From contig NZ_CP035033.1 of NCBI RefSeq assembly GCF_004028275.1, forward strand, positions 1 to 64,000: DNA of 64,000 bases, given 5' to 3'. Position numbers and translations under genes: made by a program. The notes below the pieces were generated by a model, which saw only the letters and a program-made list of their open reading frames with translations, did not search any database and was not told where the DNA came from. The DNA comes from Hydrogenovibrio thermophilus (lineage in GTDB: Bacteria; Pseudomonadota; Gammaproteobacteria; Thiomicrospirales; Thiomicrospiraceae). The first letter of the stretch is position 1; each line of letters begins with the position of its first letter. Positions 3,114-44,722 of this stretch are shown here, one piece after another.

Positions 3114-3196
3114 TCTTCCGACCGGCGTCGCCTCCCGGCGCCGGACAATCGCTCAGTCTTATCTTGTTCCAGCCCCCTTTTTCACGAGCGTGAGTC

Positions 3197-15161: not shown

Positions 15162-17814
<2,653 letters not shown>

Positions 17815-28693: not shown

Positions 28694-29859
28694 CGCACCA
28701 TACATCGAATGCCCGGCCGGAAGCCTACATCACCCTGACCGCCGCCGAAATGCCCAATGCGCCGGTCGATAACGACCACATTGAATCCGTGCTCGGCATG
28801 ATCAACGGCAAGCCGTCCCGTGCCAAACGTATTATTCTGCGCAACAACGGTATTCAATCGCGTCATTATGTTCTGGATCCGAACACTCAGGAACCGGTTT
28901 GCAATAATGCGCAACTCACCGCGCAGGCCGTGCGCAACTTATTTGCATCAAAAAATGAATTGAATCAAATCGATTTACTGGCCTGCGGCACCACCATGCC
29001 CGACCAAATCGCGCCCGGTCATGCGGTGATGGTGCACGGCGAGCTAGCTAGCCCGCCGTGTGAAACCGTGTCCACCGCCAGCATCTGCATCAGCGGTCTG
29101 ATGGCGTTGAAATACGCCTATCTAGCAGTGCGGAACGGCGATAGCCGCAAGGCCGTCGCCACCGGATCGGAAACCGCCTCCATCCTGTTGCGCGCTCGCA
29201 ATTACGAAGCCGAGACCCAAGCCAAGCTGGAACAGCTTGAAACCCGCCCGGAAATCGGTTTCGACAAAGACTTCCTGCGCTGGATGCTGTCGGATGGAGC
29301 CGGTGCGGTCTGCATCGAACCGCAACCGCGCACCGATACCACCAGCCTGAAAATTCACTGGATCAAAACCCTGTCTTATGCCAACGAACTGGAAACCTGT
29401 ATGTATGCCGGGGCCACCAAGCAAGCTAACGGCGACCTGATTGGTTGGAATCGTTACGAGGGGGCTGCCTTGATGAAAGAAAGCGTGCTGGCCATCAAAC
29501 AAGACGTCAAGCTCCTCAACGACAATATCGTGCCTTACGCCATCACCAAAACCCTCGACAGGCTGGTCGCGGAAACCGGATTACAGGCCGACGACATCGA
29601 TTATTTCCTGCCACATATCTCGTCGATGTATTTTTACCACAAGGTCGCCGATGCTTTGGCGGACATGCATTTCGTCATTCCGCAGGAAAAATGGTTCACG
29701 AATCTGACCACCAAAGGCAACACCGGCTCGGCCTCGATTTTCATTATGCTGGACGAACTGGTCAAATCCGGCCGCTTGAAAAGCGGCAACAAGCTGCTCT
29801 GCTTCGTACCGGAAAGCGGCCGCTTCTCCAGCGGGTTCATGTTGCTGGAAGTCGTCTAA
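28684..29859 (+). CDS. DarB-like beta-ketoacyl-ACP synthase III
   Basis: This ketosynthase III would join a beta-ketoacyl thioester with a second acyl chain to make the dialkylresorcinol precursor. The 391-residue product has catalytic Cys135 in STASICISGLM, a His in the HISSMYFYH region and an Asn in TKGNTGSASIFIM, consistent with the Cys-His-Asn triad. It overlaps the DarA-like gene. It could alternatively be a priming FabH-type enzyme, but pairing with DarA favours DarB. Confidence 0.82.
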   Translation: MSLAHHTSNARPEAYITLTAAEMPNAPVDNDHIESVLGMINGKPSRAKRIILRNNGIQSRHYVLDPNTQEPVCNNAQLTAQAVRNLFASKNELNQIDLLACGTTMPDQIAPGHAVMVHGELASPPCETVSTASICISGLMALKYAYLAVRNGDSRKAVATGSETASILLRARNYEAETQAKLEQLETRPEIGFDKDFLRWMLSDGAGAVCIEPQPRTDTTSLKIHWIKTLSYANELETCMYAGATKQANGDLIGWNRYEGAALMKESVLAIKQDVKLLNDNIVPYAITKTLDRLVAETGLQADDIDYFLPHISSMYFYHKVADALADMHFVIPQEKWFTNLTTKGNTGSASIFIMLDELVKSGRLKSGNKLLCFVPESGRFSSGFMLLEVV

Positions 29860-29876
29860 CCTCGCAAGGAGCGCCT

Positions 29877-30302
29877 ATGAAAATCGATGAAGTGCCCCAA
29901 CAAGCCGACGACATCTACGAAGGCGAAACCAAAGTGGTCTACGCCGTCGGCCAGGACGGCAAACTCGCCACCGCCTCCACCCAGGGTTGGGAAGCGGAAA
30001 TCGAGGCCTTGAAAGATGCGGTCGATGAAATCGAACAGCAGGCTCGTGAGGCCTGGCAGCGCGCCCGAAACGGCGAGACTTCCCCGCTGGAGTACCACAT
30101 GCTTCACCAACGATTGGATGTGCCGATGCTGGCGCAGGCGATGGGCAAATTCCAATGGCAAATCCGACGTCACTTCAAACCCAACGTCTTTAACCGTCTG
30201 TCGGACAAACGCCTGCAACAATATGCCAAAGTCATGGGGTTGTCCGTCGAAACCCTAAAGCGCCTGCCGGACACCCTCGAACCCGGCGAGCCCCAACCTT
30301 AA
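29877..30302 (+). CDS. Small charged protein of the pigment cluster, unknown function
   Basis: The 141-residue product is soluble, acidic at the N terminus and helical (AEIEALKDAVDEIEQQAREAWQRARNGETS), with a C-terminal part RLSDKRLQQYAKVMGLSVETLKRLP resembling a small helix-turn-helix or tail-interaction module. No family was recognised. A strong AAGGAG precedes the ATG at 29877, 17 bp after the DarB-like stop, and the BtrH-like gene follows after 23 bp. Its conserved position between pathway genes suggests a partner or regulator rather than an enzyme. Confidence 0.75.
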   Translation: MKIDEVPQQADDIYEGETKVVYAVGQDGKLATASTQGWEAEIEALKDAVDEIEQQAREAWQRARNGETSPLEYHMLHQRLDVPMLAQAMGKFQWQIRRHFKPNVFNRLSDKRLQQYAKVMGLSVETLKRLPDTLEPGEPQP

Positions 30303-30325
30303 CTTTTCCAAACAACCGATTTTCT

Positions 30326-31339
30326 ATGCCTGATTTATCTCAATTCCAACATCAACAAGCCGCCCACTGCGAAACCGGCGCCGCCGCCGGTTTATTCCGC
30401 GCCCACGGGCTCGATTTATCCGAAGCGATGGTCTTCGGTCTGGCCAGCGGCTTGACCTATGCGTATCTGCCGTTCGTCAAAATCAACGGTTTGCCGTTGA
30501 TGGCCTATCGCATGCCGCCACGCATGATTTTGAAGATGTTATCGTGGCGCATCAAAGGCTTGAAGATTCGCTTTAAAACCTTCAAAAACGAAGCCGACGG
30601 CCAAGCCTTCCTCGACCAAAAACTGGCCGAAGGCGAATTGGTCGGTTGTCAGACCTCGGTGTTCTTTCTACCCTATTTCCCGAAAGAAATGCGGTTTCAT
30701 TTCAACGCCCACAACCTATTGGTTTTCGGTAAAGAAACCGTGGACGGCGAATCGCAATACCACATCAGCGACCCGGTGTTTTCACACACCGTCACCACCG
30801 ATGCCGCCAGCCTGAACGAAGCACGCTTCGCCAAAGGCGCACTGGCACCGAACGGCCGTTTGTATTACTTCGAGTCGGTGCCGGAGAGCATCGATTATGA
30901 CACCTTGATTCCCAAAGCCATTCGCTTTACCGGCAAGGCCAACGGCAAACGCAACATCACGCCGATTTCCGGCGTGGGCGGCATGAAACTGGTGGCGAAA
31001 CGCATCGAAAAATTGGAAAAGGACAGCAAACGTTACCGCCAGTTGTTTCTCGGCCACATTGTACGAATGCAGGAAGAAATCGGCACCGGCGGCGCCGGTT
31101 TTCGCTATATGTACGCCGCCTTTTTGCAGGAAGCCGCCGAGAAACTCCAGCGTCCGGAACTGCATGAATGGGCCGATGCCTTTGTCGCCATCGGTGATGA
31201 GTGGCGCGAGTTTGCCTTATTGTGCGCCCGCATCAGCAAAGGACGCGGAAACCACACCTTAAAAGAAGCCGCCGACTTCCTGCGTCGCATTGCCGACCAG
31301 GAACAGGTCCTCTACAATCAAATGGCGAAATTCAAATAA
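30326..31339 (+). CDS. BtrH N-terminal-domain protein, acyltransferase candidate
   Basis: The 337-residue product opens HCETGAAAGLFRAHGLDLSEAM...GLASG, the pattern of the BtrH-type papain-like fold. Cys15, a His in FHFNAHNLLV and an Asp in ISDPVF could form a Cys-His-Asp triad. BtrH moves an acyl group from ACP in butirosin synthesis. Here it might transfer the finished aryl-polyenoyl chain to the resorcinol or another acceptor. The C-terminal helical half (from about 235) is of the DUF4872 type. Function is inferred. Confidence 0.68.
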   Translation: MPDLSQFQHQQAAHCETGAAAGLFRAHGLDLSEAMVFGLASGLTYAYLPFVKINGLPLMAYRMPPRMILKMLSWRIKGLKIRFKTFKNEADGQAFLDQKLAEGELVGCQTSVFFLPYFPKEMRFHFNAHNLLVFGKETVDGESQYHISDPVFSHTVTTDAASLNEARFAKGALAPNGRLYYFESVPESIDYDTLIPKAIRFTGKANGKRNITPISGVGGMKLVAKRIEKLEKDSKRYRQLFLGHIVRMQEEIGTGGAGFRYMYAAFLQEAAEKLQRPELHEWADAFVAIGDEWREFALLCARISKGRGNHTLKEAADFLRRIADQEQVLYNQMAKFK

Positions 31340-31354
31340 CATCCAAGTAAACCG

Positions 31355-31380
31355 ACACCCCACCAGGCCTGGCGGTTTTC
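31355..31380. terminator. Palindrome copy after the BtrH-like gene
   Basis: CCAGGCCTGG at 31363-31372 with weakly paired flanks and a following TTTT. It lies 23 bp after the stop and may act as a terminator. Confidence 0.45.
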
Positions 31381-31430
31381 AGGGTAAGGTGGGTTCGCCG
31401 CGGATAGCACTTTTGGCTTAAAACCGTCAT

Positions 31431-31447
31431 AATGGAAACCTTCCATT
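31431..31447. promoter_or_regulatory. Perfect 7-bp dyad before the lysE-like gene
   Basis: AATGGAA and TTCCATT are separated by ACC and lie 19 bp before the LysE-family start. The dyad overlaps a possible CATAAT -10 sequence, so it could be an operator. Confidence 0.3.
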
Positions 31448-31466
31448 TTCGGATCGGGGCTTGGTC

Positions 31467-32105
31467 ATGACATTCCAACTAACGTTCGATATCTGGCTGG
31501 CGATGGGCGCGGTATTGCTCATCATGGCGTTGATGCCCAGCCTCAGCGTGCTACTGGTCACCAGTCGCAGCAGCCTGTTCGGGATGCGTCATGGTTTGGC
31601 GACGGCCGCCGGCATTGTCAGCGCCGACCTGCTGTTCACACTGGTGGCGCTTTTCGGGTTGAAATGGCTGGCAGACCACTTTGAGCTCGGCTTTAGGTTG
31701 TTGACGTATCTCGGCGGCGGCTACCTCATCTGGCTCGGTGTGCAATTGCTGCGCCGTCCCCCGGAACAGAAACCGGTGACGCAAACCACCCACGCCACCC
31801 TCACCGCCAGCTTTGGATTAGGCTTATTGTTTACCCTCGGCGACCAAAAAGCCATACTATTCTATTTCGGGTTTTTCCCTGCTTTCGTCCCCATGGAACA
31901 ACTTGAAACCGGCGATATCTTATTGATTCTATTCCTCACACTGGTGACCGTCGGCGGTGCCAAGGCCTTGTATGCCGTCAGTGCGGCGCGAGCAACGATA
32001 TTGCTTCGCCCTCGCCGTCAGGATTTGATTCGACGCACCGCCGCCAGCGTGTTTCTCCTCATCGGCGTGTACCTCATTATCGCCACCACATTGGAGTGGC
32101 GATGA
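31467..32105 (+). CDS. LysE-family translocator
   Basis: The 212-residue product is a six-helix LysE/RhtB-type exporter: MGAVLLIMALMPSLSVLLVTSRS, YLGGGYLIWLGVQLLRR and LFTLGDQKAILFYFGFFPAFVP. Family members export amino acids or related small molecules. The ATG at 31467 is favoured over the in-frame TTG at 31461 by spacing to a GGGG ribosome site. Its stop overlaps the methyltransferase start (ATGA), so the two are coupled. Whether they belong to the pigment pathway is unclear. Confidence 0.85.
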   Translation: MTFQLTFDIWLAMGAVLLIMALMPSLSVLLVTSRSSLFGMRHGLATAAGIVSADLLFTLVALFGLKWLADHFELGFRLLTYLGGGYLIWLGVQLLRRPPEQKPVTQTTHATLTASFGLGLLFTLGDQKAILFYFGFFPAFVPMEQLETGDILLILFLTLVTVGGAKALYAVSAARATILLRPRRQDLIRRTAASVFLLIGVYLIIATTLEWR

Positions 32106-32782
32106 CGGTGTCGCAACGCATTTTGGACGCTTGGGACAACAATGCCCAGGCCTGGGCCAAAACCATACGGGAAAACGCCTTGGCCTCTCGTCGGCTGGTG
32201 ACCGACGCCGCCATCGTTGAACAATTATTATCGGAACCCGATTGGTCGTCGCTTCTCGATGTGGGCTGCGGCGAAGGTTGGTTGATTCGCGCCCTGAAAT
32301 CCGAACGCCCCGATGCGCACTTCACCGGCTTCGACGGCTGCGCGGCCTTAATCGACACCGCTCGCGCAGACGATCGCGATGGCGATTACCGACACCTCAC
32401 CTATCAGCAAATACACCGCGACCGTTTTTCAGGACCTTTCGATCGCATTGTCTGCAATTTTTCATTATTCGAAGACGAATCCGTCGTGGAACTATTGCAG
32501 CGATTACGCGATTGCCTCACGCCGCAGAACGGCCGGCTAGCAATTCAAACCCTGTATTCAGACGCGCCAAAAAGCGAATGGGAGGCCGATTCCTGGGCCG
32601 GCTTGCCGGACAGCTTCCGGGAACCACACCCCTGGTTCAAACGTTGCGAAGCCGATTGGTTCGAATTATTCACCCGAATGGGGTTGGAAATGGCGTCTGT
32701 ACATTACCCGGCTTATCCGGACAGCGACCGAATCGCATCGGTGATTTTCGTGTTGAAAACAGGCGATCGCCACCCTCAATGA
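32102..32782 (+). CDS. Class I SAM-dependent methyltransferase
   Basis: The 226-residue product has the SAM-binding motif LLDVGCGEGWLIRAL and a following acidic strand FTGFDGC. Aryl polyene clusters often carry a methyltransferase acting on the aromatic head, so that role is plausible. The start overlaps the LysE-like stop by four bases. The N terminus DNNAQAWAKT includes a CCAGGCCTGG copy (32146-32155) read as Gln-Ala-Trp. The stop lies in the left copy of a 21-bp direct repeat. Confidence 0.82.
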   Translation: MTVSQRILDAWDNNAQAWAKTIRENALASRRLVTDAAIVEQLLSEPDWSSLLDVGCGEGWLIRALKSERPDAHFTGFDGCAALIDTARADDRDGDYRHLTYQQIHRDRFSGPFDRIVCNFSLFEDESVVELLQRLRDCLTPQNGRLAIQTLYSDAPKSEWEADSWAGLPDSFREPHPWFKRCEADWFELFTRMGLEMASVHYPAYPDSDRIASVIFVLKTGDRHPQ

Positions 32783-32795
32783 TCCGGCCGGGTCA
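32775..32795 (+). repeat. Left copy of a 21-bp direct repeat
   Basis: This 21-bp stretch begins CTCAATGATCC, ends GGGTCA, and matches 34974-34994 at 20 of 21 positions. The copies bracket one lipoprotein gene. The left copy spans the methyltransferase stop and is otherwise noncoding. Confidence 0.85.
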
Positions 32796-32892
32796 AGGCA
32801 AACACACTTTGAAGTTCCGACGTTCCACGCTTCCAGCTGTCGATTCGGCCGCACAAGCCTTCCAAAGCACACCCCAAACTTACCAAAACAAC

Positions 32893-32921
32893 TTTACAGT
32901 ATCGCAAGAAGTTGCTATGGT
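32893..32921 (+). promoter_or_regulatory. Promoter of the beta-propeller lipoprotein gene
   Basis: TTTACA (32893-32898) and TATGGT (32916-32921) are separated by exactly 17 bp, 45 bp before the gene start, in an AT-rich leader unlike neighbouring gaps. Confidence 0.5.
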
Positions 32922-32965
32922 GATTTGATTAGTATTTTTAATGATTTTAAATAAGGAATTTTTTA

Positions 32966-34981
32966 ATGGGTATGTTATCCAACTTAAGCGTTTTCCCGTT
33001 GAGTATATTGCTGCTTGCCGCTACTTTGGTTGGATGCGATTTTTCAGACGACGATAACTCCGATCAGACCAAAATTTCGGGTGTTGTGCAAACCGGCTGC
33101 GGCTCGACATCACTGAAAACCGGCGCTTTCTCGCAAGTGGAATTGTATAAAAGCACGGGGGAAAATGCGGAATTGATCGGAGCCAGTTCGGCCGATGATC
33201 AGGGCCATTTTTGGATCGGATTTGACGATGATGAAAACCCCGGAATTTATTTCCTCAAAGCTCGACTGGATAATCAAATAGACTTGATGGCGGTTTTAGG
33301 AACCGAAATGACTTCAAATGTCGTCATCAATGAATTAACAACCGTCGCGGCGGCCTACTCATATGCCCGGTTTTTTGATTTCCAGACAGATTTGATTGCA
33401 GGAAGTGGTGACCTTCTGCCTCTTCAAATCGCGGCTGGAATGAATGCCAATCTCGCCGATGCCCAAAGCGGTTGCCCCTCAACGGTCATGCTGAACACTC
33501 CGAATGCCGATCAAACCAATTCACTTAGATCTTTACGCAGCTTGGCGAATCTTGCTTCATACTGCGTGGCAGATGCTACGGTATGTTTACCCCAACTTCA
33601 AAACTATGTATCGAGTGACAGCAATCAACAACCGACAGGCTTGCTTGATTCTCTGGTACTGCTTGCGCGTAATCCCGCAGGCGACGTGTCCGGAATATAT
33701 GACTTATCGAGGAAACAGGACGTTTACGAACCTGACCTTGAAAGAATACCGGATGCTTGGACGTTGGCCGTCAAAGTAAATGACACCGGTAGCGCGCAAT
33801 ACACCTTTGGGGGGGCTGCCAACACTGTTTTTGACGAACGCGGCTATGCCTGGATCAACAATAATGTTGTGCAGGGAGATACCGTTTCGTCAAATGTCAT
33901 TGTCGTACTGAAACCGGATGGCTCCCCTTCAGACGGTAAAAATGGAACGCCCCTTTCACCCGTAACGGGTGGCGGTATCCTCGGTCCAGGGCTGGGCATT
34001 ACCTATAACAAGGTGTCAGACACCATCTGGCTGGGCGATTTTGGATGGGGTGGTGTGAATCCAAGCGACTCCGGGAATGGGTCGGTTTCGGAAATCGCTC
34101 TCGATGGCCAACCGATTTCCCCGGACAGTGCCTACGATGGGGGAACCGACCGGGTTCAGGGAATTTTGGTTGATAATCAAGGCAATGTCTGGTCGGCCAA
34201 TTACGGCAATGACAAGGTGATTGTATTTCCCGGTGGCGATCCACAGCAAGCCGTCGAAATCGGTATTAGCTGTCAGCCATTTGGCCTGGCCCACAATCCG
34301 CAGGATGATACGGTTTGGGTAGCGACGGTAGGTTGTCAAGAAGGTGTGGCGGACAGCGTCGTTGCTCACTATTCCTTGCAAAACGGTGTAATCACGCAAC
34401 TGTCCTCGACAACAGTCGGCGATGTATTAAAAGGATTGGATGTTGATTTCGACGGTTCGGTATGGGTCGCATCGGGTAGCGACAGTTCGGTGTATCACCT
34501 GAGTGCTGACGGTGATGTCTTAGACCGCATTACCGGGGTGACCGGATTAGCGTCACCTTGGAATGTGCGGATAGATGATGCGGGAAATGTCTGGGTCTCG
34601 AACTTTGGTTCCATGGACCCCTTCGACCTTGACAACATATATTCAAACGCGGCTGTTTCCGTATTGGCAGGTGCACGCTCGGAATCCGGCAAACCGGCTG
34701 GTACGCCGCTCTCACCGTCCACGGGGTACACCCTTCCCAGTGCGGGAGAGGAAGTTATATTGTTTGATGGTACGCCTCTCAGCCAGACAGGAACAAATCA
34801 ACCGAAATTTACGCCAATGATGCGTTCAGTGAGCGCCGTGCCCGATCGAGCCGGCAATCTATGGGTCTCAAATAACTGGAAACCAAACTTCCACACCGAT
34901 TTAACCCATAATCCTGGAGGAGACGGGATGATCATTTTTGTTGGGCTGGCTGAACCGACCACTCCCGGCCGAACTCAATGA
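32966..34981 (+). CDS. Lipoprotein with NHL/SMP-like beta-propeller repeats
   Basis: The 671-residue product has a lipoprotein signal (lipobox LVGC, Cys about 25), a short acidic linker, a domain with several Cys (TGCGST, SGCPS, ASYCVADATVC), and a C-terminal propeller with repeated strands such as GILVDNQGNVWSANYGNDKV, RIDDAGNVWVSN and DRAGNLWVSN. Such propellers are found in lyases and binding proteins, but no catalytic site is evident. The gene appears less GC-rich than its neighbours, has its own promoter and AAGGA site, and is bracketed by a direct repeat that supplies its stop codon. It looks like an insertion, and its 3' end may not be original. Confidence 0.8.
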   Translation: MGMLSNLSVFPLSILLLAATLVGCDFSDDDNSDQTKISGVVQTGCGSTSLKTGAFSQVELYKSTGENAELIGASSADDQGHFWIGFDDDENPGIYFLKARLDNQIDLMAVLGTEMTSNVVINELTTVAAAYSYARFFDFQTDLIAGSGDLLPLQIAAGMNANLADAQSGCPSTVMLNTPNADQTNSLRSLRSLANLASYCVADATVCLPQLQNYVSSDSNQQPTGLLDSLVLLARNPAGDVSGIYDLSRKQDVYEPDLERIPDAWTLAVKVNDTGSAQYTFGGAANTVFDERGYAWINNNVVQGDTVSSNVIVVLKPDGSPSDGKNGTPLSPVTGGGILGPGLGITYNKVSDTIWLGDFGWGGVNPSDSGNGSVSEIALDGQPISPDSAYDGGTDRVQGILVDNQGNVWSANYGNDKVIVFPGGDPQQAVEIGISCQPFGLAHNPQDDTVWVATVGCQEGVADSVVAHYSLQNGVITQLSSTTVGDVLKGLDVDFDGSVWVASGSDSSVYHLSADGDVLDRITGVTGLASPWNVRIDDAGNVWVSNFGSMDPFDLDNIYSNAAVSVLAGARSESGKPAGTPLSPSTGYTLPSAGEEVILFDGTPLSQTGTNQPKFTPMMRSVSAVPDRAGNLWVSNNWKPNFHTDLTHNPGGDGMIIFVGLAEPTTPGRTQ

Positions 34982-34994
34982 TCCGGCTGGGTCA
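34974..34994 (+). repeat. Right copy of the 21-bp direct repeat
   Basis: One mismatch to 32775-32795. It contains the stop of the lipoprotein gene (34979-34981) and the last codons and stop of the oppositely oriented ABC permease (34975 onwards). Confidence 0.85.
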
Positions 34995-36222
34995 GGCGTT
35001 TTTGCAAACGCCAATAGGCCGCTAAAAAGAGCACCAGCGCCAGGCCGAGCAGTTGCAGGATATAGGGCCATACCGATTGAAAATCGCCCTGGCGTAACAG
35101 AATTTCCAAAAAGGCTTCCAAGCCCCAGTTCATCGGTGAAAAAGCGGCGAGCTTCTGCATGGCGTCCGGCATCACGAACACCGGCACCATCACCCCGCCC
35201 ATCGCGCCCATCAGCAAATTACTGACACCGCCAACGGTCGAAGCCTGTTCGTGGGTTTTCACCCAAACCGCAATCAACAACGCAAAACTGATGGCGGTCA
35301 AACTCAACGCCAACGACACCGGCAACAATAACCAGGCATTGCTGCTCAATTGCAACGCTTCTCCGCCCAATAACGGCACCAAAAATACGCCCGTGAGAAA
35401 CATCAGCCCTGTTTGCAGCAAATTAATCAGCATATAAGGCAACAGCTTCCCTAACAGAATCCATTGTTTGGCAATCGGAAAGGTGTTGAGCCGTTCCAGC
35501 GTACCGTTATTCAACTCCACCAACAAGGTCGCCGAAAACGGAATCACAATAAAGAACATCGCGAACACCAACCAGGCGGGCACACTTTGTTGCACCGAGG
35601 TCGGCGTCACTTGGGTCGTACCATAGGACAAATTATCTTCGCTCAACACGGTCGGCCCCAGGAATTTGCGGATATCCAGCTCCGGAACCTCTTGCTGGCG
35701 GCTTGCCGAGCGGGAACCGGCTGCGAAGGTCACGGCAATTTTCTTTTCCACCAGTTTGCGCATCAACGCCGCTTTCAACAAGGAACGGGCATAACTCGGT
35801 GCCACCGGAGAATAGTCGATTTGAATCGGTGTCTGAATCGGCTCGCCGCGTTTAAGCTTTTTCACCAGATCCGTCGGCACCTGTATCAAGGCCAAACGCT
35901 CCCCGCTCAACGTCGCTTGCCGGGCATCGGCGATGGCTTGCGGACTGTTTTCAATCGGCAGGACATCAAAACTTTCCAGGTTCAGAAAGTCGTTCTGCCA
36001 GGCCTGGGAGATTTTATCGTCGAACACCGCAAAGATTTTCAAGCCACCGGATGCGGAAGCGCTCGAATTCTTGGCGTCCGTGGCCTGTTTGTCGGAAAAC
36101 ACTTCCTGCAAACTCATCGACATAATGACCACAAACACCACCGGCATCAAAAACAGCACCAATAAGGCATAGACATCCCGCAAAATCAAACATGCTTCTT
36201 TCTGCAACAAGGCCTTAAACAT
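34975..36222 (-). CDS. ABC-2-type exporter permease
   Basis: The 415-residue product has one N-terminal membrane helix (about 18-38, VYALLVLFLMPVVFVVIMSM), a large extracytoplasmic domain (about 40-230), and five or six C-terminal helices (about 235-405), the layout of ABC-2 permeases. It overlaps the ATPase gene upstream by eight bases, making a two-gene exporter. A CCAGGCCTGG copy (35998-36007) encodes Gln-Ala-Trp in the outer domain. It may export a pigment precursor or an unrelated compound. Confidence 0.85.
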   Translation of the reverse strand: MFKALLQKEACLILRDVYALLVLFLMPVVFVVIMSMSLQEVFSDKQATDAKNSSASASGGLKIFAVFDDKISQAWQNDFLNLESFDVLPIENSPQAIADARQATLSGERLALIQVPTDLVKKLKRGEPIQTPIQIDYSPVAPSYARSLLKAALMRKLVEKKIAVTFAAGSRSASRQQEVPELDIRKFLGPTVLSEDNLSYGTTQVTPTSVQQSVPAWLVFAMFFIVIPFSATLLVELNNGTLERLNTFPIAKQWILLGKLLPYMLINLLQTGLMFLTGVFLVPLLGGEALQLSSNAWLLLPVSLALSLTAISFALLIAVWVKTHEQASTVGGVSNLLMGAMGGVMVPVFVMPDAMQKLAAFSPMNWGLEAFLEILLRQGDFQSVWPYILQLLGLALVLFLAAYWRLQKRLTQPDH

Positions 36223-37216
36223 GGTTCACATCCTCAAGCGCCACATCCGACTGCGAAGCATGTTTCAAGGCAGCCAATACGTCCGGTTGCACGGATTCGA
36301 AAAACAGCGTCTCCATATCCAGCGGTTGCATCGACAAGCGTTGCAGTTTCGCGCCCGGCAGGTGGTTTAAAAACGCCATCACTTGCCGGTCAATCAACGC
36401 CAAATCAGTATCGGACGGCAATCTTCCGGACACCTTATTTCCGTCAACGACAAACCCGTTTTGTTGGCAAAAGTCGTCAAAAGCGGGTAAATGATTTAAA
36501 TTTGACCAGGCCTGGTCGATTTCAACTTCCAGCTTGACCCCGCTTTCTCGCCGCCAGGCATCCAATTCTCCCTGGAAACGCACTTCACCTTGATGCAACA
36601 ACGCCACCTGGTCGCACAGCAATTCGATTTCCTGCATGTGGTGCGAGGTATAGACAATCGCGACACCTTGGTCGCGCAATTGACGAATCGCCTTGAGAAT
36701 GAAATCACGGGAAATGGGGTCGATACCCACCGTCGGCTCGTCGAGAAACAACAATTTCGGACGGTTGACCAAACCGATAGCCAGGTTCAAGCGGCGCTTC
36801 AGGCCACCGGACAACCGGTCGGCGGTTTGCTGGCGGTGCGCTTCCAACTGACAAAACGCGATGGCGTCCTCGACACGTTGCGTCCGTTCCCCCAAATCCG
36901 CCCGCAAGTCGGCAAAAAACTGCAGGTTTTCCAGCACCGTCAGGGTCGGGTAAAACGCATAGCCTTGCGGTACCAACGCAATCTGTCGCAGGATGTCGGT
37001 GCGATGCGTTGCATAATCCAACCCCAACACCGTCAAGTCGCCGGATTGCTTTTTGAGCTGACCGGTCAGCAAACCAATCAAGGTGCTTTTTCCGGCGCCG
37101 TTGATACCCAACAGCCCCAAAATTCCGCTTGGTTTCATCTGCAAGTTGAGCGCTTTCAGCACCGGTTGACCCGGTTGGTATTGGTAGGAAAGGTCTTGGA
37201 TATCGAGGGTGTTCAC
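36215..37216 (-). CDS. ABC transporter ATP-binding protein
   Basis: This ATPase powers the adjacent permease. It has Walker A GINGAGKSTLIGLL, Q-loop region VPQGYAFYPTLTV, signature LSGGLKRRLNLAIGL and Walker B LLFLDEPTVGID, followed by a C-terminal extension of about 100 residues common in drug/lipid exporters. From GTG at 37216 the product is 333 residues and begins at the domain edge (NTLDIQDLSYQY); an upstream in-frame TTG at 37249 would add 11 residues. A CCAGGCCTGG copy (36506-36515) encodes Gln-Ala-Trp in the extension. Divergent from the halogenase-like gene. Confidence 0.88.
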   Translation of the reverse strand: MNTLDIQDLSYQYQPGQPVLKALNLQMKPSGILGLLGINGAGKSTLIGLLTGQLKKQSGDLTVLGLDYATHRTDILRQIALVPQGYAFYPTLTVLENLQFFADLRADLGERTQRVEDAIAFCQLEAHRQQTADRLSGGLKRRLNLAIGLVNRPKLLFLDEPTVGIDPISRDFILKAIRQLRDQGVAIVYTSHHMQEIELLCDQVALLHQGEVRFQGELDAWRRESGVKLEVEIDQAWSNLNHLPAFDDFCQQNGFVVDGNKVSGRLPSDTDLALIDRQVMAFLNHLPGAKLQRLSMQPLDMETLFFESVQPDVLAALKHASQSDVALEDVNHV

Positions 37217-37338
37217 GAGGTGAAAAGGGTTCCGGTGAAAATTGCACAAACTTTCTCACAAAAGCGCTGGAAACACAACCGATTGGCGGTTTTTTTGATA
37301 GACTTAACGCTTCTCGTTCGCTTGCAAAGGAAACAGGT

Positions 37339-38568
37339 TTGAAACACTGTGATGTCTTCATTATCGGGGGTGGTCCGGCCGGCTCCATCGCCGCCGCGAA
37401 ATTGGTCCAAGCCGGTTATGACGTCAAGCTGGTGGAGCGCCAGGTCTTCCCGCGTTTTGTCATCGGCGAATCCTTGTTGCCACGCTGCAACCAACTGCTG
37501 AACGACGCCAATATGCTCGACAGCATCGAAGCGGCCGGGTTCCAATTCAAAGGCGGTGTCGCCTTCCAGACCGGCCGGGAATTCGAGATTTTCCATTTTG
37601 ACAACAACCTCGGCGAGCCCTTCAACAGTTCCTTTCAAGTGAAACGCGAGCTCTTCGACCATGAACTGTTGAAAGACGCGGAACGCAAAGGCACGGATGT
37701 GGAATTCGAATCCGAAGTCACCGCTTACGATCCGGATGCCAACATCGTCACCGTCAAAACCAAACAGGGCGACATCGAAACCTATCAAGCGAAAAAAGTC
37801 ATCGACGCCTCCGGCTATGGCCGTGTTTTGCCGCGTTTACTGAATCTGGACGCTAAACCGAAACTGGCCTTGAGACGCGCCACTTTCTGCCGAGTGCAAA
37901 ATGACGTGCGCCCCACCGACGGCACCGACGGCTACATTTACGTCGACGTTTACGGTGACAACGATGCCTGGATTTGGAACATCCCGTTTAACGACGGCAT
38001 CACCTCGGTCGGCATTGTCTGTACCGAAGCATTTTTCCAATCGTTCAATATGACCGACGACGCTTTTTGGGATCACATTGTCCACACCCATCCATGCGCC
38101 AAAGAACGCTACAAAAACGCCTCCAAAATCAATGACGTCGGTTCTTTGAGCGGTTATTCGGCCGCGGTGAAAAAACTGTACGGCGACAATTTCGTCTTGG
38201 TCGGCAACGCCTCCGAATTCCTTGACCCGGTTTTCAGCTCCGGCGTGACCTTGGCCTTGGAATCCGGGTCGGTTGCCGCGGATTTAACGCTGCGAGAATT
38301 GCAGGGCGACACCGTGGACTGGCAAACCGAATATGAAGATTACATGATGCGCGGCATCAATGTGTTTCGCGAATTCGTGGAATCCTGGTACGACGGCCGT
38401 CTGCAAACGATTTTCTTCACCGAGCACAAAGACGAACGCATCAAACAATCCATCACCTCGGTTCTGAGCGGTTACGTCTGGAACCCGAAAAACTATTTCG
38501 TCAAATCGCCCACCGCCGCGGTGAATACGCTGGTGGCCATGATTGAGAGTTCCAAACAACCTGTTTAA
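37339..38568 (+). CDS. Flavin-dependent halogenase-like oxidoreductase
   Basis: The 409-residue product has the FAD motif FIIGGGPAGSIAAA, the family GESLLP stretch (43-48), Lys71 in FQFKGGVAF at the place of the halogenase catalytic lysine, and WIWNIP (211-216), which fits the WxWxIP motif of flavin-dependent halogenases. It could add bromine or chlorine to the aryl head, as in brominated xanthomonadins. Related proteins in similar clusters may only hydroxylate or reduce. The start is TTG with AAAGGA upstream; no better start is in frame nearby. It stands alone between divergent ABC genes and the convergent exporter operon. Confidence 0.75.
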   Translation: MKHCDVFIIGGGPAGSIAAAKLVQAGYDVKLVERQVFPRFVIGESLLPRCNQLLNDANMLDSIEAAGFQFKGGVAFQTGREFEIFHFDNNLGEPFNSSFQVKRELFDHELLKDAERKGTDVEFESEVTAYDPDANIVTVKTKQGDIETYQAKKVIDASGYGRVLPRLLNLDAKPKLALRRATFCRVQNDVRPTDGTDGYIYVDVYGDNDAWIWNIPFNDGITSVGIVCTEAFFQSFNMTDDAFWDHIVHTHPCAKERYKNASKINDVGSLSGYSAAVKKLYGDNFVLVGNASEFLDPVFSSGVTLALESGSVAADLTLRELQGDTVDWQTEYEDYMMRGINVFREFVESWYDGRLQTIFFTEHKDERIKQSITSVLSGYVWNPKNYFVKSPTAAVNTLVAMIESSKQPV

Positions 38569-38782
38569 AGTACTTCCCCAGACTCGGCTCGACTTCTGAA
38601 TCAAGCGAGGTTACTTCAAGACCTTTGCGCGAGTCAGGACGCGAGATAAAAAAGCAGGAAAATGGGCGGATTCAAGGCAAAAAAAAGCAGGTAATAGCCT
38701 GCACTATTGCCAAGTTTTTTAACGCAGAAGCCGCGCATTTTAACCTTTTTTAGCCGTGTCATTGGCTCGTGCACAGGTCTTA
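38569..38782. other. Noncoding region between convergent genes
   Basis: The 214-bp gap holds a small hairpin, GCAGG/CCTGC with loop TAATAG (38687-38702), a run of A before it and T-runs nearby (for example 38715-38720), which could terminate the exporter operon or the halogenase-like gene. No ORF or RNA was recognised, and no second copy of the region was seen in the window. Confidence 0.35.
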
Positions 38783-41140
38783 TCACACCCGATTCTGCCA
38801 ACGCGCCAGCAGATACACCCAGATGACGCCGACAACCAAGGTTTGGCCGATGGCGACCAGAATCGGGATGGACGTCCACAGCAAACAACCGAACGTCAGA
38901 ATCGTGGTCATCAATGCAATCGTGACCGACGACATGGCGTCATCCCGTTGAGGCATTTCCTGCGAAGCTTGGGCCTGCTGACGTGCCTGGCGTGCGAACA
39001 GGCTGTAATCCAAACCGATCGCCACCACCAGAAAACCGGCCAGTAAATGGAACACCGTCACCGCTTGCCCGAACACCGACAAGCTCGCCAAACTCAAGCC
39101 CAGCCCGAACACCACCGGCAGTAAAATCCGCCAGGCCTGGGCAAAACTGGCGGTGGCCAGCCGGAGCCCCAATACAAACACCCACAGCAAGCCGAACAAT
39201 CCCCACGCCAGTTCCCAACGTAACTGAGCCACCGACTCCGCCACCAACGACCGCTGATTGAAATATAAAACGTCCTGCGCCTCACTCCAGTCTGCCAAAC
39301 TCGCTGACCGAGTCACGCCTTGCAATAGAATCTTTCCGACCACACCGTTCGCCGTCTCAGTGACCAGAGTCGGCAACAAAGCCTGCTGCCAATCCAGCGC
39401 CAGGGTTTCAAATCGCGGCCAATCCAACGGTGGCAAGGTCGAAGACGCTTGCACACTTTGCGCAAACGACTGGAAATGTTTGGGCTGTAACGGGGTGTCG
39501 CTTTTTGCCAAAGCCGAATTCAGCGCATCGGCCGATGGCAAGGCCGAAAGGCGTTGCGCTTGGCACTGCAAACTCGGCAACCAATCGGATAGGCCCAACC
39601 AGCCTTGAATGATGCCGTCCGTTTTCAACTGCGCCAAACCGGCCGACAAGGCTTCCTGCCGTTGCAATAAGGTTTGCATGGAGTCGGCTGGCACCAGTAA
39701 AAACTGGCTGGCTTCCGGCTGGCGGAACGCTTGGCGTAAATCCCCGTCCTGTTGCAATAAGCTGGGCGGCACCGGACTCAAGCTGGCCAAATCGTCCTGC
39801 CACACGATGGGTTTCCACCACAGCAGCGCCAAGACCAAAGCCGTCAACCCCATCCATTTCCAACCATCGCGAACGGTTGGTACCGCTTGGTCGCGGCCGT
39901 CCATTTTCACAGCCGTTGGAAGGGACGTCACCGGCGACAGCACCCATAGCATCAAACGCGTCATCCCCAACGCCGTCAAAAGGCCGACGGCGGCAAACAG
40001 CCCCATCTGCTGCACGCCGGCAATGCCCAGCCACATCAAACTGCCCAAGCCGACCAGGCTGCTCAAGGCGCCCAAACGAATCACCGGCCAATTTCGCCAG
40101 GCCTGCTGCGGCGATTGTCGGAGCGCCGCTAGGGCATGAATCGGGTAATCCACCGCCACACCAATCAAGACCACGCCCAAGGCCAGCGTCATCGCTTCAA
40201 TAGATCCAAACACGGTTTGCACCGCCAGCGTACCGAGCAAGGTGCCCGCCGCCAAAGGCACAAAACTCAGGAACACCCAAAGCGGACGACGAAACGTCCA
40301 AAACAGAAAGCCCAATACCAACAAGGTCGCGATGACGGACAACCATTTGACGTCCTGTTCAATGTCGTGGCGCGCTTGTTGGGCAATCCAGGCCACATTG
40401 GACACAGCGATTTTCACGCCCGCCCTATCCATTTCGGGAACACCCGATTTCACTAACGCCGCTCGCAAAACCGGTTCGACCGCTTGCAAATGGCTGGCCA
40501 GAGCCGCCGGTTTGAATGTCACCAAAAACAGCAATTGCATGGCGTCCGATTGCGTCGATTCGGACGGCACTTCGGGAGCCTTCACTTCGCCCCAAACACC
40601 GGAAAGCGTGGGCACCGCCTGCTGAAAACGGGATTGCCCCAAATAACCGAACCATTGCTGGGTCGGGTCACTGAGGGCGGTGGCTTTATCCAACACCAAT
40701 CCCATTTGCCAGGCTTGCCACAAATCGTCCAGCCGTGACGGTAAGGTTCCCAGGTCAAAATCGGTCAGAAGGTAACGATATTCCCGTAAAGGCACTTGAT
40801 TCCAGGCGGAGATGGACGACGGAGCATTCCGAACCCCGGCCACCCAGGACTGATCCCGTAACGCCAAGGCCAACGTCTGACTGATGGCGGCCGCGTCATT
40901 TGAGGAGATACTCTCGCTCAACGGCAGTTGAACCGACACCATTAACGGTTGCTGCGAACGGTCTTGATTGAGGGATTGTTTCAGGGAATCGAACAACACC
41001 GCTTGGTCGGCGGTTTCGGCCGGCGGGAAGAAGGCGGTCAGTTGATTTTGCAGGGTCAGTTTCGGCAGACTCCAAGCGGCCAGCGCACCGAAGACCAGCA
41101 CCACGGCCAGCAAAACGCCATAACGCGACCGCTGCGCCAT
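38783..41140 (-). CDS. MMPL/RND-type exporter of the pigment cluster
   Basis: The 785-residue product has two halves, each starting with a membrane helix followed by a periplasmic domain of roughly 200 residues and a bundle of about five helices (about 265-400 and 660-780). Motifs include GVVLIGVAVDYPIHALAAL and GFLVVAIGLDYSLFARQ, the MMPL-type GxxxDY sites. Such proteins move polyene or other lipids from the inner membrane. It is the last gene of the minus-strand operon, 3 bp after the LolA-like gene. A CCAGGCCTGG copy (39131-39140) encodes Gln-Ala-Trp. Confidence 0.87.
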   Translation of the reverse strand: MAQRSRYGVLLAVVLVFGALAAWSLPKLTLQNQLTAFFPPAETADQAVLFDSLKQSLNQDRSQQPLMVSVQLPLSESISSNDAAAISQTLALALRDQSWVAGVRNAPSSISAWNQVPLREYRYLLTDFDLGTLPSRLDDLWQAWQMGLVLDKATALSDPTQQWFGYLGQSRFQQAVPTLSGVWGEVKAPEVPSESTQSDAMQLLFLVTFKPAALASHLQAVEPVLRAALVKSGVPEMDRAGVKIAVSNVAWIAQQARHDIEQDVKWLSVIATLLVLGFLFWTFRRPLWVFLSFVPLAAGTLLGTLAVQTVFGSIEAMTLALGVVLIGVAVDYPIHALAALRQSPQQAWRNWPVIRLGALSSLVGLGSLMWLGIAGVQQMGLFAAVGLLTALGMTRLMLWVLSPVTSLPTAVKMDGRDQAVPTVRDGWKWMGLTALVLALLWWKPIVWQDDLASLSPVPPSLLQQDGDLRQAFRQPEASQFLLVPADSMQTLLQRQEALSAGLAQLKTDGIIQGWLGLSDWLPSLQCQAQRLSALPSADALNSALAKSDTPLQPKHFQSFAQSVQASSTLPPLDWPRFETLALDWQQALLPTLVTETANGVVGKILLQGVTRSASLADWSEAQDVLYFNQRSLVAESVAQLRWELAWGLFGLLWVFVLGLRLATASFAQAWRILLPVVFGLGLSLASLSVFGQAVTVFHLLAGFLVVAIGLDYSLFARQARQQAQASQEMPQRDDAMSSVTIALMTTILTFGCLLWTSIPILVAIGQTLVVGVIWVYLLARWQNRV

Positions 41141-41143
41141 CCG

Positions 41144-41749
41144 TTATGGCTCCATGCGATAACGCCGCCAGTCACCGTTGGCGAAATTCAATTGGATGGT
41201 TTGCACCTGGGCTTTTTGATGCTGCCAAACACCCGATACGATGATGTCATGCGTAGTGAGAATCACATTGGCTTTCGGCTGATAAGTCAGTTGCCAACCG
41301 TTTTGAGGTAGGGCTTGATAGCGCACATCATACAAATCTTCCAATGCTTTCGGGCGGCCGGATAACAAGGCTTGCAACGGGTTCAGAAACGCCTGAATGT
41401 CCGGCACCTGTGCCAACGGCATCTGCCAATGTTTGTCGGGAAAATCGACCTTGACCGAATCGCCGATCATCGACAAGCGGCCTTGAATCGGCTGGTGATA
41501 CTGCAATGAAAAATGCTGTGGATTCTGATAATGAAAAGTGCCTTGGTAATCGCTGGTGACATCCAGCAAGGTATCGTGCCGGGCTTCGACAAAATCCTGC
41601 GTTTTCGGGGTTTTGGCCCAGGCCTGATAGATTTTGGTCTTTTCCGCTTGGCCCGTTTGAACCGCCGTATCGGCGAACGCATGACTGGCGAACAACAACC
41701 CAATCGCCATCATCGAAATAAGCCATTTTAAACCGCTCAAGCCATTCAC
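41144..41749 (-). CDS. LolA-like outer-membrane lipid/lipoprotein carrier
   Basis: The 201-residue product has a signal peptide (about 1-27, ending SHAFA) and a LolA-like concave beta-sheet pattern (YQGTFHYQNPQHFSLQYHQP, LSMIGDSVKVDFPD). In aryl polyene clusters a LolA homologue is thought to carry the product across the periplasm. GTG at 41749 overlaps the upstream acyltransferase stop (GTGA), which supports it over the longer frame starting at 41797. A one-mismatch palindrome copy (41622-41631) encodes Gln-Ala-Trp. Confidence 0.8.
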   Translation of the reverse strand: MNGLSGLKWLISMMAIGLLFASHAFADTAVQTGQAEKTKIYQAWAKTPKTQDFVEARHDTLLDVTSDYQGTFHYQNPQHFSLQYHQPIQGRLSMIGDSVKVDFPDKHWQMPLAQVPDIQAFLNPLQALLSGRPKALEDLYDVRYQALPQNGWQLTYQPKANVILTTHDIIVSGVWQHQKAQVQTIQLNFANGDWRRYRMEP

Positions 41750-42645
41750 TTTGAAGCGTCCTCGTCGTCCAGCCAATAATGGTAAAAATTGAACCAATTA
41801 TACGGCGATTGGCAGCACTGTCGCGCCACTTCATCCATATAGGCTTGTGCCATTTCCTGTAAACTGGCACCCGGCTCAAACGTCAGTGCATCACTGTAGA
41901 CATGATAACGATTGCCACCTTCAAAGCGGCCAAAGAAAACCGTCACCGGAATATCAAAACGTTTCGCCAGTTTGAAACCGGCAATCGGAATCAGCATCTC
42001 ATCGTCGAAAAAGCGTACCTTGACCGTGGCTTCCTGCCCGACCGGACGGTCCTTCAAAATCGCCACCGATTGCTCGGATTCAATGGTGTCGTGAATGTCA
42101 AAAATGGTTTGCAGGCCATTGTATGGAATTACCATGGTTTCCATTTCCGGGTTCAGCTCGTTCAGGAGTTTGACGATGGTTTCGTTTTGATCCACCTTCA
42201 ACACCACCTTGATTTTGATGTCGTATAAATCCGACGACAAGGCGCGAATGGCATCCAGGCTGCCGAAATGGGCACCGAAATACAATTGCGCCGGATTCTT
42301 TTTCATCGATGCCTGCCAGGCTTCAAGGTTGGTATACTCGACCTCAAAGGGTTCAATGCGATTGGTCAGAAAGTAAACTCGATCCAGAATGGTGGTGGCG
42401 AACCAAAGAAAGTGTTTGTAAGTGTCCCAAAATCCGGCGGGACGCCCCAACACCTGATTGAGATAATGGCGCGAAGCGGCCTTCTGCTTGCCGGAAATCG
42501 GCATATAAAACAGGATAATCGGATGCAATAACGGCTTGACCAGCCAACGCGGAAACAGCAACGCCAAGCCGCGAATCAACTTCAGCCAAAAGCCGGAAGT
42601 ACGCTCTTTTTGCTGTGTCCAATCGGTTAGTTTCGGTGACGTCAT
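41746..42645 (-). CDS. LpxL/HtrB-like lysophospholipid acyltransferase
   Basis: The 299-residue product has an N-terminal hydrophobic region (about 22-50), the acyltransferase HX4D motif in GAHFGSLDA, and the downstream ILKDRPVG segment typical of LpxL-type enzymes. It would attach an acyl or polyenoyl chain to a lipid acceptor in the inner membrane, consistent with anchoring of aryl polyenes. It overlaps the dehydratase gene upstream by four bases. Confidence 0.82.
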   Translation of the reverse strand: MTSPKLTDWTQQKERTSGFWLKLIRGLALLFPRWLVKPLLHPIILFYMPISGKQKAASRHYLNQVLGRPAGFWDTYKHFLWFATTILDRVYFLTNRIEPFEVEYTNLEAWQASMKKNPAQLYFGAHFGSLDAIRALSSDLYDIKIKVVLKVDQNETIVKLLNELNPEMETMVIPYNGLQTIFDIHDTIESEQSVAILKDRPVGQEATVKVRFFDDEMLIPIAGFKLAKRFDIPVTVFFGRFEGGNRYHVYSDALTFEPGASLQEMAQAYMDEVARQCCQSPYNWFNFYHYWLDDEDASK

Positions 42646-43013
42646 CGTATCCCGTCCTGCCCCTCTTGTGTTTGAATGGCCGCTCGGTTGCGCAAAACCA
42701 ATTGACCTGTCGCCGCGGGAATCGCTTCCTCGCTTAATGCCAATTTAAACCGGGCCTTAAGCGTTTCCGCATCGGCGTTACCCGTCCATTCAATCTGCAA
42801 ATCAACCGCCTGTTCCGGCCGCACCAGATGGGTGAATTTGGCCTGTGGAAGCTTAACGATGTCATATTCCGGATAATGTGAAACCAGCACCTGTTCCACC
42901 GCCTCCAGCAACACCACCCCCGGCACCACCGGATTGCCCGGAAAGTGGCCGGGCAGGCTCGGATGATTCGCCGGGATGGTAAAGGTTTCTGAAATCGGTT
43001 CAAGCACGGACAT
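42642..43013 (-). CDS. FabZ-like 3-hydroxyacyl-ACP dehydratase
   Basis: The 123-residue product has the FabZ signature HFPGNPVVPGVVLLEAVEQV, with the catalytic His in LPGHFPGNP, so it appears active. It is the second hotdog dehydratase of the cluster; paired dehydratases are known in aryl polyene systems. The start lies within the 3' end of the AMP-ligase gene (14-bp overlap). Confidence 0.88.
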   Translation of the reverse strand: MSVLEPISETFTIPANHPSLPGHFPGNPVVPGVVLLEAVEQVLVSHYPEYDIVKLPQAKFTHLVRPEQAVDLQIEWTGNADAETLKARFKLALSEEAIPAATGQLVLRNRAAIQTQEGQDGIR

Positions 43014-44388
43014 TTGGGGATTGGGTTCCTTTTTGCATTGTGTTTTGTTTCGCCAATTCGCTCAACTGTTGAAACTGTATTTTACCTAACTCATTGCGCG
43101 GAATCTGCTCGACAAAATGAATCGGTCTGGGCAAAAACACCGCATCCATGTCCTGCGCCAACGCCTGTTTGATGTCGTGCGCGTTCAAATCGGACACCAC
43201 AAATGCCTGAAGCCGTTCGCCATTCGGTGCTTGCCAAAACAGCCCGTCGGAGACGCCGTCAATGGCTTGCAGCTTCTGGTTCAAATACGCCAGGGAACTG
43301 CGTTTCCCCGCCACTTTCACCACATCGGAGCGCCGCCCCAAGAGTCGAAACCGATTCGGCTGGCCCGGAATCAATTCGAACTGGTCGTGCAACGGGTGGC
43401 TTTCCGCCAAAGGTGCGATGTTCACCTCACACACCGACAGAGACTCTTCACACAACAGGAAATTGTCATCGTACAGCGTCCAGGCGTCACCCGCCAATGT
43501 TTCACGTGAAGCAATGGAAGCGGTTTCCGTACTGCCGAACACCTCGAACACGCGCGCATGGAGCGTATCGCTGACCTGCTGAGCCAAGGCTTGCTCCAAC
43601 GGAGCGGTGGCCGACAAAACGCGCAACGGCAATTGCGGCCAGTCCACATCAAACGGCATCAGTTTTTTCAAATGCAAGGGCGTGGAAGCCAACAACACCG
43701 GTCCAGCTTGCGCGGCCAATACGGCCCGTATGTCTTCGGCGAAAATCGGCCGCCCGACCCAGATGGATTGTTTGGAAAACAACGGCCAGAAAATCGTGGT
43801 TTCCAGACCGAACATATGCTGACTCGGCACCGTCGCCACCACGTACCCGGGCTGGTTTAACTCGAAACGGGCAATGGCCTGTTGTGCCAGCAACGCCATT
43901 TGACGCCAGGTTTTCACCACCCGCTTCGGTTGGCCGGTGGAACCGGACGTGTACAACCAGATATCACTGTTCAACACCCTGTCCCAAATCGGCTGTAAGA
44001 CCGCTTCATCGACCCAATTGCTCTTGTCCGCCGATAAAAACGACTCCGGCGTCGGCCCGCTTTCCGGCCCTTCCTGCTCGCTGAACCGTTGTACCGTTTG
44101 CGTTTGCGACGCTTCCAACTCGGCGGTTAATTCGGTTAGGGTATTGGCCGCGACATTGGGTGGCAAAACCGTTTTGCCACCCCGCATGGCCACCGCCAGC
44201 ATCACCATCAAAAATACATCGCGGCGGGCATAAAGATTCAGGACAACCGGCGCGTCCGGAAGAGTTTCACTGAAACGATAGGCGGCCGAAAGCAATTGAT
44301 GGCGGGAGACATTTCCGCCCTCTGAAAGCAGAAAAGGGTCGCTTGACAGCAACCCTTTTAATGGTAAGTCCACCGAGTGGCCGGCCAT
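43000..44388 (-). CDS. AMP-dependent acyl/aryl ligase
   Basis: This ANL-family enzyme would activate the aromatic starter acid and load it on ACP or CoA. The 462-residue product has YTSGSTGQPK (146-155), the SATAPLEQALAQ region, VFGSTETASIA, and the C-terminal FRLLGRRSDVVKVAGKR and PRNELGKIQF with the conserved Lys. It is 3 bp from the ACP gene. In aryl polyene clusters the substrate is usually a 4-hydroxyaryl acid; no ammonia lyase to make one was found here. A parS-like site lies inside the gene at 43498-43513. Confidence 0.87.
   Translation of the reverse strand: MAGHSVDLPLKGLLSSDPFLLSEGGNVSRHQLLSAAYRFSETLPDAPVVLNLYARRDVFLMVMLAVAMRGGKTVLPPNVAANTLTELTAELEASQTQTVQRFSEQEGPESGPTPESFLSADKSNWVDEAVLQPIWDRVLNSDIWLYTSGSTGQPKRVVKTWRQMALLAQQAIARFELNQPGYVVATVPSQHMFGLETTIFWPLFSKQSIWVGRPIFAEDIRAVLAAQAGPVLLASTPLHLKKLMPFDVDWPQLPLRVLSATAPLEQALAQQVSDTLHARVFEVFGSTETASIASRETLAGDAWTLYDDNFLLCEESLSVCEVNIAPLAESHPLHDQFELIPGQPNRFRLLGRRSDVVKVAGKRSSLAYLNQKLQAIDGVSDGLFWQAPNGERLQAFVVSDLNAHDIKQALAQDMDAVFLPRPIHFVEQIPRNELGKIQFQQLSELAKQNTMQKGTQSPNVRA
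43498..43513. other. parS-like site inside the AMP-ligase gene
   Basis: TGTTTCACGTGAAGCA matches the parS consensus TGTTTCACGTGAAACA at 15 of 16 positions, including the whole central TTTCACGTGAA. It lies about 43 kb from oriC. parS sites within genes near the origin are common. Confidence 0.7.
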
Positions 44389-44391
44389 GAA

Positions 44392-44652
44392 TCAGGCCTG
44401 TTTGTTGGCTTGAACGAACTCGGATAAGGCCGCAATCGAAGCAAACACGTCCCCGACATTCTGATCACCGGATTTGATTTTAATGCCGTAACGCTTATTC
44501 AATTCCAACGAGATTTCCAGCGCATCGATGGAATCCAAGCCTAGACCGTCATTGAAAATCGGTTCATTCGGATCGATTTCATCCACGGTCACATCTTCCA
44601 GGTTGACGGCCTCAATAATCATTTCTGCAATTTCGGTTTGCTCAGGTGTCAT
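44392..44652 (-). CDS. Acyl carrier protein
   Basis: The 86-residue acidic protein has the phosphopantetheine site GLGLDSIDALE (Ser41). It carries the growing polyene chain and the aryl starter. It is the only ACP recognised in the cluster, though related clusters often have two or three. The ATG at 44652 is preferred over the in-frame TTG at 44664 because GGA lies at a suitable distance. It heads the minus-strand operon ACP, ligase, dehydratase, acyltransferase, LolA, MMPL. Confidence 0.93.
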   Translation of the reverse strand: MTPEQTEIAEMIIEAVNLEDVTVDEIDPNEPIFNDGLGLDSIDALEISLELNKRYGIKIKSGDQNVGDVFASIAALSEFVQANKQA

Positions 44653-44722
44653 GTGTTTTTCCAATTTTGTCGGTTTTTTAAGCAGCGTTTAACGATATTT
44701 TCTGAATTCAAAATCAGCGCAA

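Follow-up and report, generated by a model that had tools for sequence, protein, structure and literature searches.

Within a pigment cluster of Hydrogenovibrio thermophilus lies a gene for a flavoprotein with the look of a halogenase, and the question raised by this locus is whether its product halogenates the pigment or performs some other redox step. The window analysed here is a stretch of 64,000 nucleotides, positions 1 to 64,000 of contig NZ_CP035033.1 (GCF_004028275.1). Halogenase genes in aryl-polyene (APE) clusters have already been published for Xanthomonas and Azoarcus. Xanthomonas clusters are described as containing a halogenase gene together with brominated pigments, and Lysobacter is described in the same source as having neither the gene nor the bromine (PMC3691225). 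Flexirubins are reported to differ in the chlorination of their ring (PMC3992019). For Azoarcus, the arcuflavin gene set is described as comprising a halogenase-annotated gene, dialkylresorcinol (DAR) genes and an ABC transporter, and the pigment itself as nonbrominated despite the halogenase-annotated gene in the clusters (PMC3949708). The genes for ArcA, from the arcuflavin clusters, and for the xanthomonadin-cluster halogenase are thus annotated as halogenases within APE clusters, a likeness to the gene analysed here that is drawn from literature annotation and not from sequence. The Azoarcus gene set also resembles the window cluster in its DAR and ABC transporter genes, whereas the Azoarcus loci are unlinked and the window genes stand together. 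According to PMC8253772, the hydroxyl group of the APE head usually comes from the precursor, the known tailoring reactions of the head are methylation and halogenation, and the head of the Escherichia coli CFT073 aryl polyene is methylated. No halogenase-type gene was found in the CFT073 cluster.

The surrounding genes (Table 1) represented an aryl-polyene/DAR gene set of the arcuflavin or flexirubin type, with the ketosynthase pair, ketoreductase, dehydratase, ACP, AMP ligase, acyltransferase, LolA-like protein, MMPL transporter, DarB and DarH all present. The halogenase-type gene is a member of this APE cluster. In the DAR block, DarH scored above the cut-off of NF053550, and DarB scored above that of NF005293 and below that of NF053539. 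The DarA-like gene had no family match; by its position and likeness, it is presumably a darA gene. A methyltransferase gene and a gene for a 671-aa propeller-like protein were located inside the DAR/ABC stretch (window positions 32096–34981). In the near-identical cluster of G010 (L084), the propeller gene was without a match, and the methyltransferase gene had only a short 44% match. No flavin reductase gene was seen within the pigment cluster, and one PF01613 flavin reductase gene was present in the genome. No PF00221 ammonia-lyase was found in the genome. A search for a PF21168 chorismatase gave no match anywhere, control genomes included, and was hence uninformative. Genes at window positions 454–6432 and 15370–17814, which by their appearance are presumably dnaA, dnaN, recF and gyrB, would place the pigment cluster near the chromosome origin.

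Table 1. Positions in the window of the pigment cluster genes and of the motifs of the halogenase-type protein.
Feature	Position	Strand	Remark
Ketosynthase and chain-length-factor-like ketosynthase genes	22423–24431	+	22423–23646 and 23556–24431
Ketoreductase gene	24910–25638	+	
Family 2 glycosyltransferase gene	26889–27644	+	
Dialkylresorcinol (DAR) block	27746–31339	+	DarA-like; DarB-type ketosynthase, 28684–29859; small ORF, 29856–30302; DarH-type acyltransferase, 30326–31339
ABC transporter permease and ATPase genes	34975–37249	−	Transcribed away from the halogenase-type gene
Halogenase-type flavoprotein gene	37339–38568	+	409 aa, TTG start; ORF reading and motif/family matches
GGGPAG	37366–37383	+	Residues 10–15; FAD-binding GxGxxG-type motif
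Lys71 codon	37549–37551	+	In QFKGGVA; column common to the lysine of six solved halogenases
WIWNIP (WxWxIP)	37969–37986	+	Residues 211–216
Asn290 codon	38206–38208	+	Asp in 6/6 characterised halogenases aligned
FLDPVFSSG (FxxPxxSxG)	38218–38244	+	Residues 294–302
MMPL transporter, LolA-like, acyltransferase, dehydratase, AMP ligase and ACP genes	38783–44664	−	

The halogenase-type gene was read from a TTG codon directly preceded by AAAGGAAACAGG, and the start point was approximately the same in close relatives in the alignment. The single sigma-70-like site detected (38543–38571; chance mean, 0.7) does not precede the gene. Terminator-like stems were located between the gene and the MMPL gene (38687–38711), with five in the stretch against a chance mean of 3.0. 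The earlier note had read WIWNIP and Lys71 in this frame, and both were indeed at the residues named. WxWxIP is no chance match, because only approximately 0.00015 occurrences are expected from the composition of the protein itself. Six flavoproteins of weak similarity from Thiomicrospiraceae genomes, one of them encoded in the genome of the window, lacked both WxWxIP and FxxPxxSxG over the stretches that matched.

The earlier note had named a failure of Lys71 to align with the catalytic lysine as one refutation of its halogenase proposal, but the two aligned in all six solved halogenases. In the MAFFT alignment, the column held lysine in 7/7 PDB rows (PltA 5dbj, ChlB4 7fco, Mpy16 5buk, CmlS 3i3l, CndH 3e1t, FasV 8zop and 3nix), and six of these seven are solved flavin-dependent halogenases; L028, with an internal stop, was left out of the fold alignment. 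The catalytic lysine is presumably the residue named K73 in PltA and K71 in CmlS. In PltM, the K87A variant is described as inactive, and the sequence round K87, taken from a primer printed in that article, fits the KxGxxF pattern found round Lys71 here (PMC6424973). The WxWxIP motif has been proposed as a shield of the flavin site that disfavours hydroxylation (PMC10696468).

Comparisons with solved structures pointed in the same direction. By sequence, the best solved relative was 3nix (341 bits), followed by Mpy16, ChlB4, PltA and CmlS. Annotated as a flavoprotein/dehydrogenase of Cytophaga hutchinsonii, 3nix is ca. 41% identical to the window protein, belongs to the same clade and has the same lysine, WxWxIP and Asn. 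Mpy16, ChlB4 and PltA were the best-scoring characterised relatives (156–167 bits); their lysine, WxWxIP and FxxPxxSxG align with those of the window protein at 25%–30% identity (Foldseek), whereas they fall outside its clade and have Asp at the position of Asn290. The AlphaFold model was of middling confidence (pLDDT 73.9) and says little on the flavin site, because the pLDDT was < 50 at residues 37–43 and 291–300, by the flavin. The nearest fold to the model was again 3nix (Z 46.1), followed by eight halogenase entries with Z values of 40.5–36.2 (FasV, ChlB4, PltA, Bmp2, a Bmp2 mutant, Mpy16, CndH and RadH). The first monooxygenase appeared behind these eight, at Z 33.2. Against the halogenase reading, CmlS, itself a halogenase, ranked below many monooxygenases (Z 31.4). 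Also against it, NF033113, the CmlS equivalog and nearest NCBIfam halogenase model, gave 156.5 bits, far below its cut-off of 900. NF049967, for QhpG-type peptidyl-tryptophan monooxygenases, gave 110 bits, below its cut-off of 240. The Pfam model Trp_halogenase scored the protein at 112.8 bits; this match alone was rejected as proof and is weak evidence, because the model also matched in 5 of 14 control genomes. That the product of the gene is a halogenase-type enzyme is well supported. The label of a phenolic halogenase, used in the earlier note, was only partly apt: the best-scoring characterised relatives are Mpy16, ChlB4 and PltA, and the substrate of PltA is described as a carrier-protein-bound pyrrole (PMC6424973).

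Residues were tallied in 49 family proteins, the window protein included, after the removal of four same-place duplicates from 53 rows. These proteins came from three phyla, namely Pseudomonadota (Thiomicrospiraceae and others, including Pseudoalteromonas, Acinetobacter and Cupriavidus), Campylobacterota and Bacteroidota (Aureispira). Lys71 was kept in all 48 proteins spanning the position, the window protein among them, and WxWxIP and FxxPxxSxG were kept in 49/49. Asn290 was also found in 49/49 family proteins and in 3nix; as the six characterised halogenases all have Asp there, this residue counts against the halogenase reading. The missing Asp is that of the flavin-contacting GD motif, which may be a defining feature of flavin-dependent halogenases. 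In a tree of 69 proteins, the family proteins and 3nix were split from the six characterised halogenases and from the group obtained with the QhpG model, and the branch support of 100/100 indicated a clade of their own. Left out of both trees were L032 (truncated), L108 and L116 (doubtful frames) and the same-place or near copies L002–L005, L025, L088 and L097; L100 was included in the first tree, with a long-branch warning, and left out of the second tree of 69 proteins. To our knowledge, no member of this clade has a tested function. No biochemical test of a halogenase from an APE cluster was found in the open-licence literature. In NCBI records, most family proteins are named NAD(P)/FAD-dependent oxidoreductase.

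The motif pair also occurred outside the clade. The QhpG model was run on 274 Gammaproteobacteria, with matches at 1e-40 in 32 genomes and none above the cut-off, and 20 loci were used of the 34 matched places listed. Both the aligned lysine and WxWxIP were present in 17 of these 20 proteins; the three that did not carry the pair were the QhpG-like L100 and the doubtful frames L108 and L116. Because 17/20 carry both, the lysine and WxWxIP alone were rejected as proof of halogenation. The claim of the earlier note that these motifs fit a halogenase rather than a simple monooxygenase is partly supported: the lysine alignment agrees with it, but the motif pair as such does not prove it. The 17 proteins (L101–L107, L109–L115 and L117–L119) represent a second group in Gammaproteobacteria that carries the halogenase lysine and WxWxIP, and we know of no tested function for it. 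The nearest solved structure to L106 was CndH (204 bits).

In the GTDB family, a search of 62 genomes with the window protein gave some match in 17, of which 10 were the gene itself (E < 1e-170) and seven were short or weak matches. All 10 carriers were among the 14 of the 62 genomes with the AMP ligase of the cluster (Fisher p 9e-9, uncorrected for kinship), and the gene stood beside the MMPL gene inside the cluster in 9/9 other carriers. This co-occurrence agrees with the place that the earlier note had given the gene within the pigment cluster. Two genomes, G025 and G049, contained the glycosyltransferase and MMPL neighbours in otherwise complete clusters from which the halogenase-type gene was absent, the sole match to the window protein near the cluster of G049 being a weak 41-residue one elsewhere. 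Two more genomes with the ligase were not counted as clean absences: in G043, the contig ends near the ligase and the genome is 79% complete; in G004, ca. 2.1 kb separates the glycosyltransferase and MMPL matches. The absence of a single gene from two intact clusters is as expected for optional tailoring, and the simplest reading is that the halogenase-type gene is an optional one-gene tailoring module. The two otherwise intact APE clusters without it (L122 and L125–L126) offer natural comparison strains for the pigment, next to clusters of the G021/G022 type, which contain the gene. The genome of Thiomicrorhabdus cannonii carries the gene (L022).

Gene order within the family differed at the DAR genes. 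In 7 of the 10 carriers, the glycosyltransferase gene directly adjoined the halogenase-type gene, and 7 of the 10 had no DAR genes in the cluster stretches read. The other three, namely the genome of the window, G010 and G006, had the DAR/ABC block between the two genes. The simplest reading is that a DAR block was inserted next to the halogenase-type gene in certain members of a single genus. The DAR/ABC block (window positions 27746–37249; L065; L084) was present in three genomes of one genus and not in the seven other carriers, as if inserted into an older gene order.

In the class-wide sample, 16 of 369 genomes matched at 1e-60, the genome of the window included. Among the other 15 matches, 12 had cluster genes of four or more kinds within ca. 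10 kb, one had a ketosynthase and a ketoreductase only, and two were on short contigs (11.4 and 4.9 kb) with no clear cluster. A sample of the class to which a Sulfurovum genome belongs gave matches in 12 of 249 genomes, the Sulfurovum genome included. The plasmid collection contained 30 matching records. The three Pseudomonadota plasmid records examined (Pseudoalteromonas, Cupriavidus and Acinetobacter) had an APE cluster round the gene, and the Aureispira record had MMPL/acyltransferase and AMP-binding genes near it. On the Pseudoalteromonas shioyasakiensis megaplasmid CP076682.1, the protein annotated as ‘tryptophan 7-halogenase’ belongs to the same clade (ca. 38% identity to the window protein), and its gene lies in an APE cluster between transporter and DUF3261 genes. 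That cluster contains an aromatic ammonia-lyase gene, in contrast to the genome of the window.

The history of the gene might differ from that of its neighbours. The gene was 60%–67% identical to the window copy in nine Campylobacterota loci, whereas identity in the 15 other members of its own class in the sample did not exceed 46%. Thiomicrospiraceae and the nearest Campylobacterota copies formed one clade in the tree (100/99). In the Campylobacterota loci L024 and L025, the halogenase-type gene was 66%–67% identical to that of the window, against 40% for the ketoreductase and 31%–33% for the glycosyltransferase. In family clusters of the other genus (L066–L068), the corresponding values were 64%–66% for the halogenase and 66%–69% for the ketoreductases. 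Given the high identity of the gene and the low identity of the ketoreductase and glycosyltransferase in L024 and L025, the gene seems, from sequence comparison, to have been exchanged between Thiomicrospiraceae and Campylobacterota lineages independently of the other cluster genes.

Overall, the product is probably a flavin-dependent halogenase whose fold is like that of PltA, ChlB4, CmlS and CndH and whose substrate is the aryl polyene that the cluster makes. This reading is based on the match in fold and motifs, the conservation, the cluster membership and the optional presence. A less likely alternative is that the protein belongs to the halogenase superfamily but works as a flavin monooxygenase or dehydrogenase, which would modify the polyene by other redox chemistry (hydroxylation, epoxidation or desaturation) and keep the lysine for another role. 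Asn290 in place of Asp and the prevailing oxidoreductase names in NCBI agree with such an enzyme, whereas the full conservation of Lys71, WxWxIP and FxxPxxSxG and the ranking of halogenases above monooxygenases after 3nix argue against it. QhpG, a monooxygenase, is described as having a halogenase-like fold with CmlS as its closest structure (PMC7876137), but in the QhpG-like L100 neither the aligned lysine nor WxWxIP is present. Two further points would suit a monooxygenase: family members turn up in APE clusters across many bacteria, and arcuflavin is described as a pigment without bromine (PMC3949708). A head hydroxyl that is usually derived from the precursor (PMC8253772) would leave less need for one.

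The two other explanations keep the halogenase ancestry and change the substrate or the activity. A true halogenase might act on a substrate other than the polyene head, either the dialkylresorcinol half of the pigment or free hydroxybenzoate, which we regard as improbable. Resorcinols are electron-rich phenols, and the window cluster contains a DAR block that, as a DAR/ABC block, adjoins the gene in the window, G010 and G006. However, 7 of the 10 family carriers have the glycosyltransferase gene as its immediate neighbour and show no DAR genes within the stretches read, an arrangement that favours the polyene half as the substrate. It is very improbable that the protein is an inactive halogenase relic. 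The absence of the gene from two otherwise intact family clusters implies that it is dispensable and would be compatible with a relic, but the open frame and the full conservation of the motifs in 49 proteins from three phyla speak against one.

For the proposed halogenase, we infer every catalytic step and the substrate, site, halide and reductase partner as follows. FADH2 would be supplied by a separate flavin reductase, and the enzyme would react with O2 to form a C4a-hydroperoxide. Attack of a halide on this intermediate would yield HOX, which would pass through the WxWxIP-shielded tunnel to Lys71. There, the lysine would hold or position HOX for the chlorination or bromination of the phenolic head ring. 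At the time of halogenation, the ring would most likely be bound to a carrier protein as a thioester or have been built into the polyene; a thioester is the form suggested by the highest-scoring relatives and by the carrier-protein chemistry on which the cluster runs. By analogy with the known pigment systems, the predicted product of the window cluster is likely a halogenated pigment.

More tentatively, and with rather less confidence than we place in the enzyme type, the APE-linked proteins may constitute a distinct, widespread and biochemically unexplored halogenase clade, with Asn for the flavin-contacting Asp, that acts on aryl-polyene intermediates, the pigments being halogenated given halide. 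If so, many of the “plain” aryl polyenes of Thiomicrospiraceae, Campylobacterota, Pseudoalteromonas, Acinetobacter and Cupriavidus would in fact carry halogen whenever the cells are given halide. Should the recurring gene encode an enzyme that does halogenate, this modification of the pigments would be widespread yet would have largely escaped notice, and the clade would be a source of new aryl halogenases.
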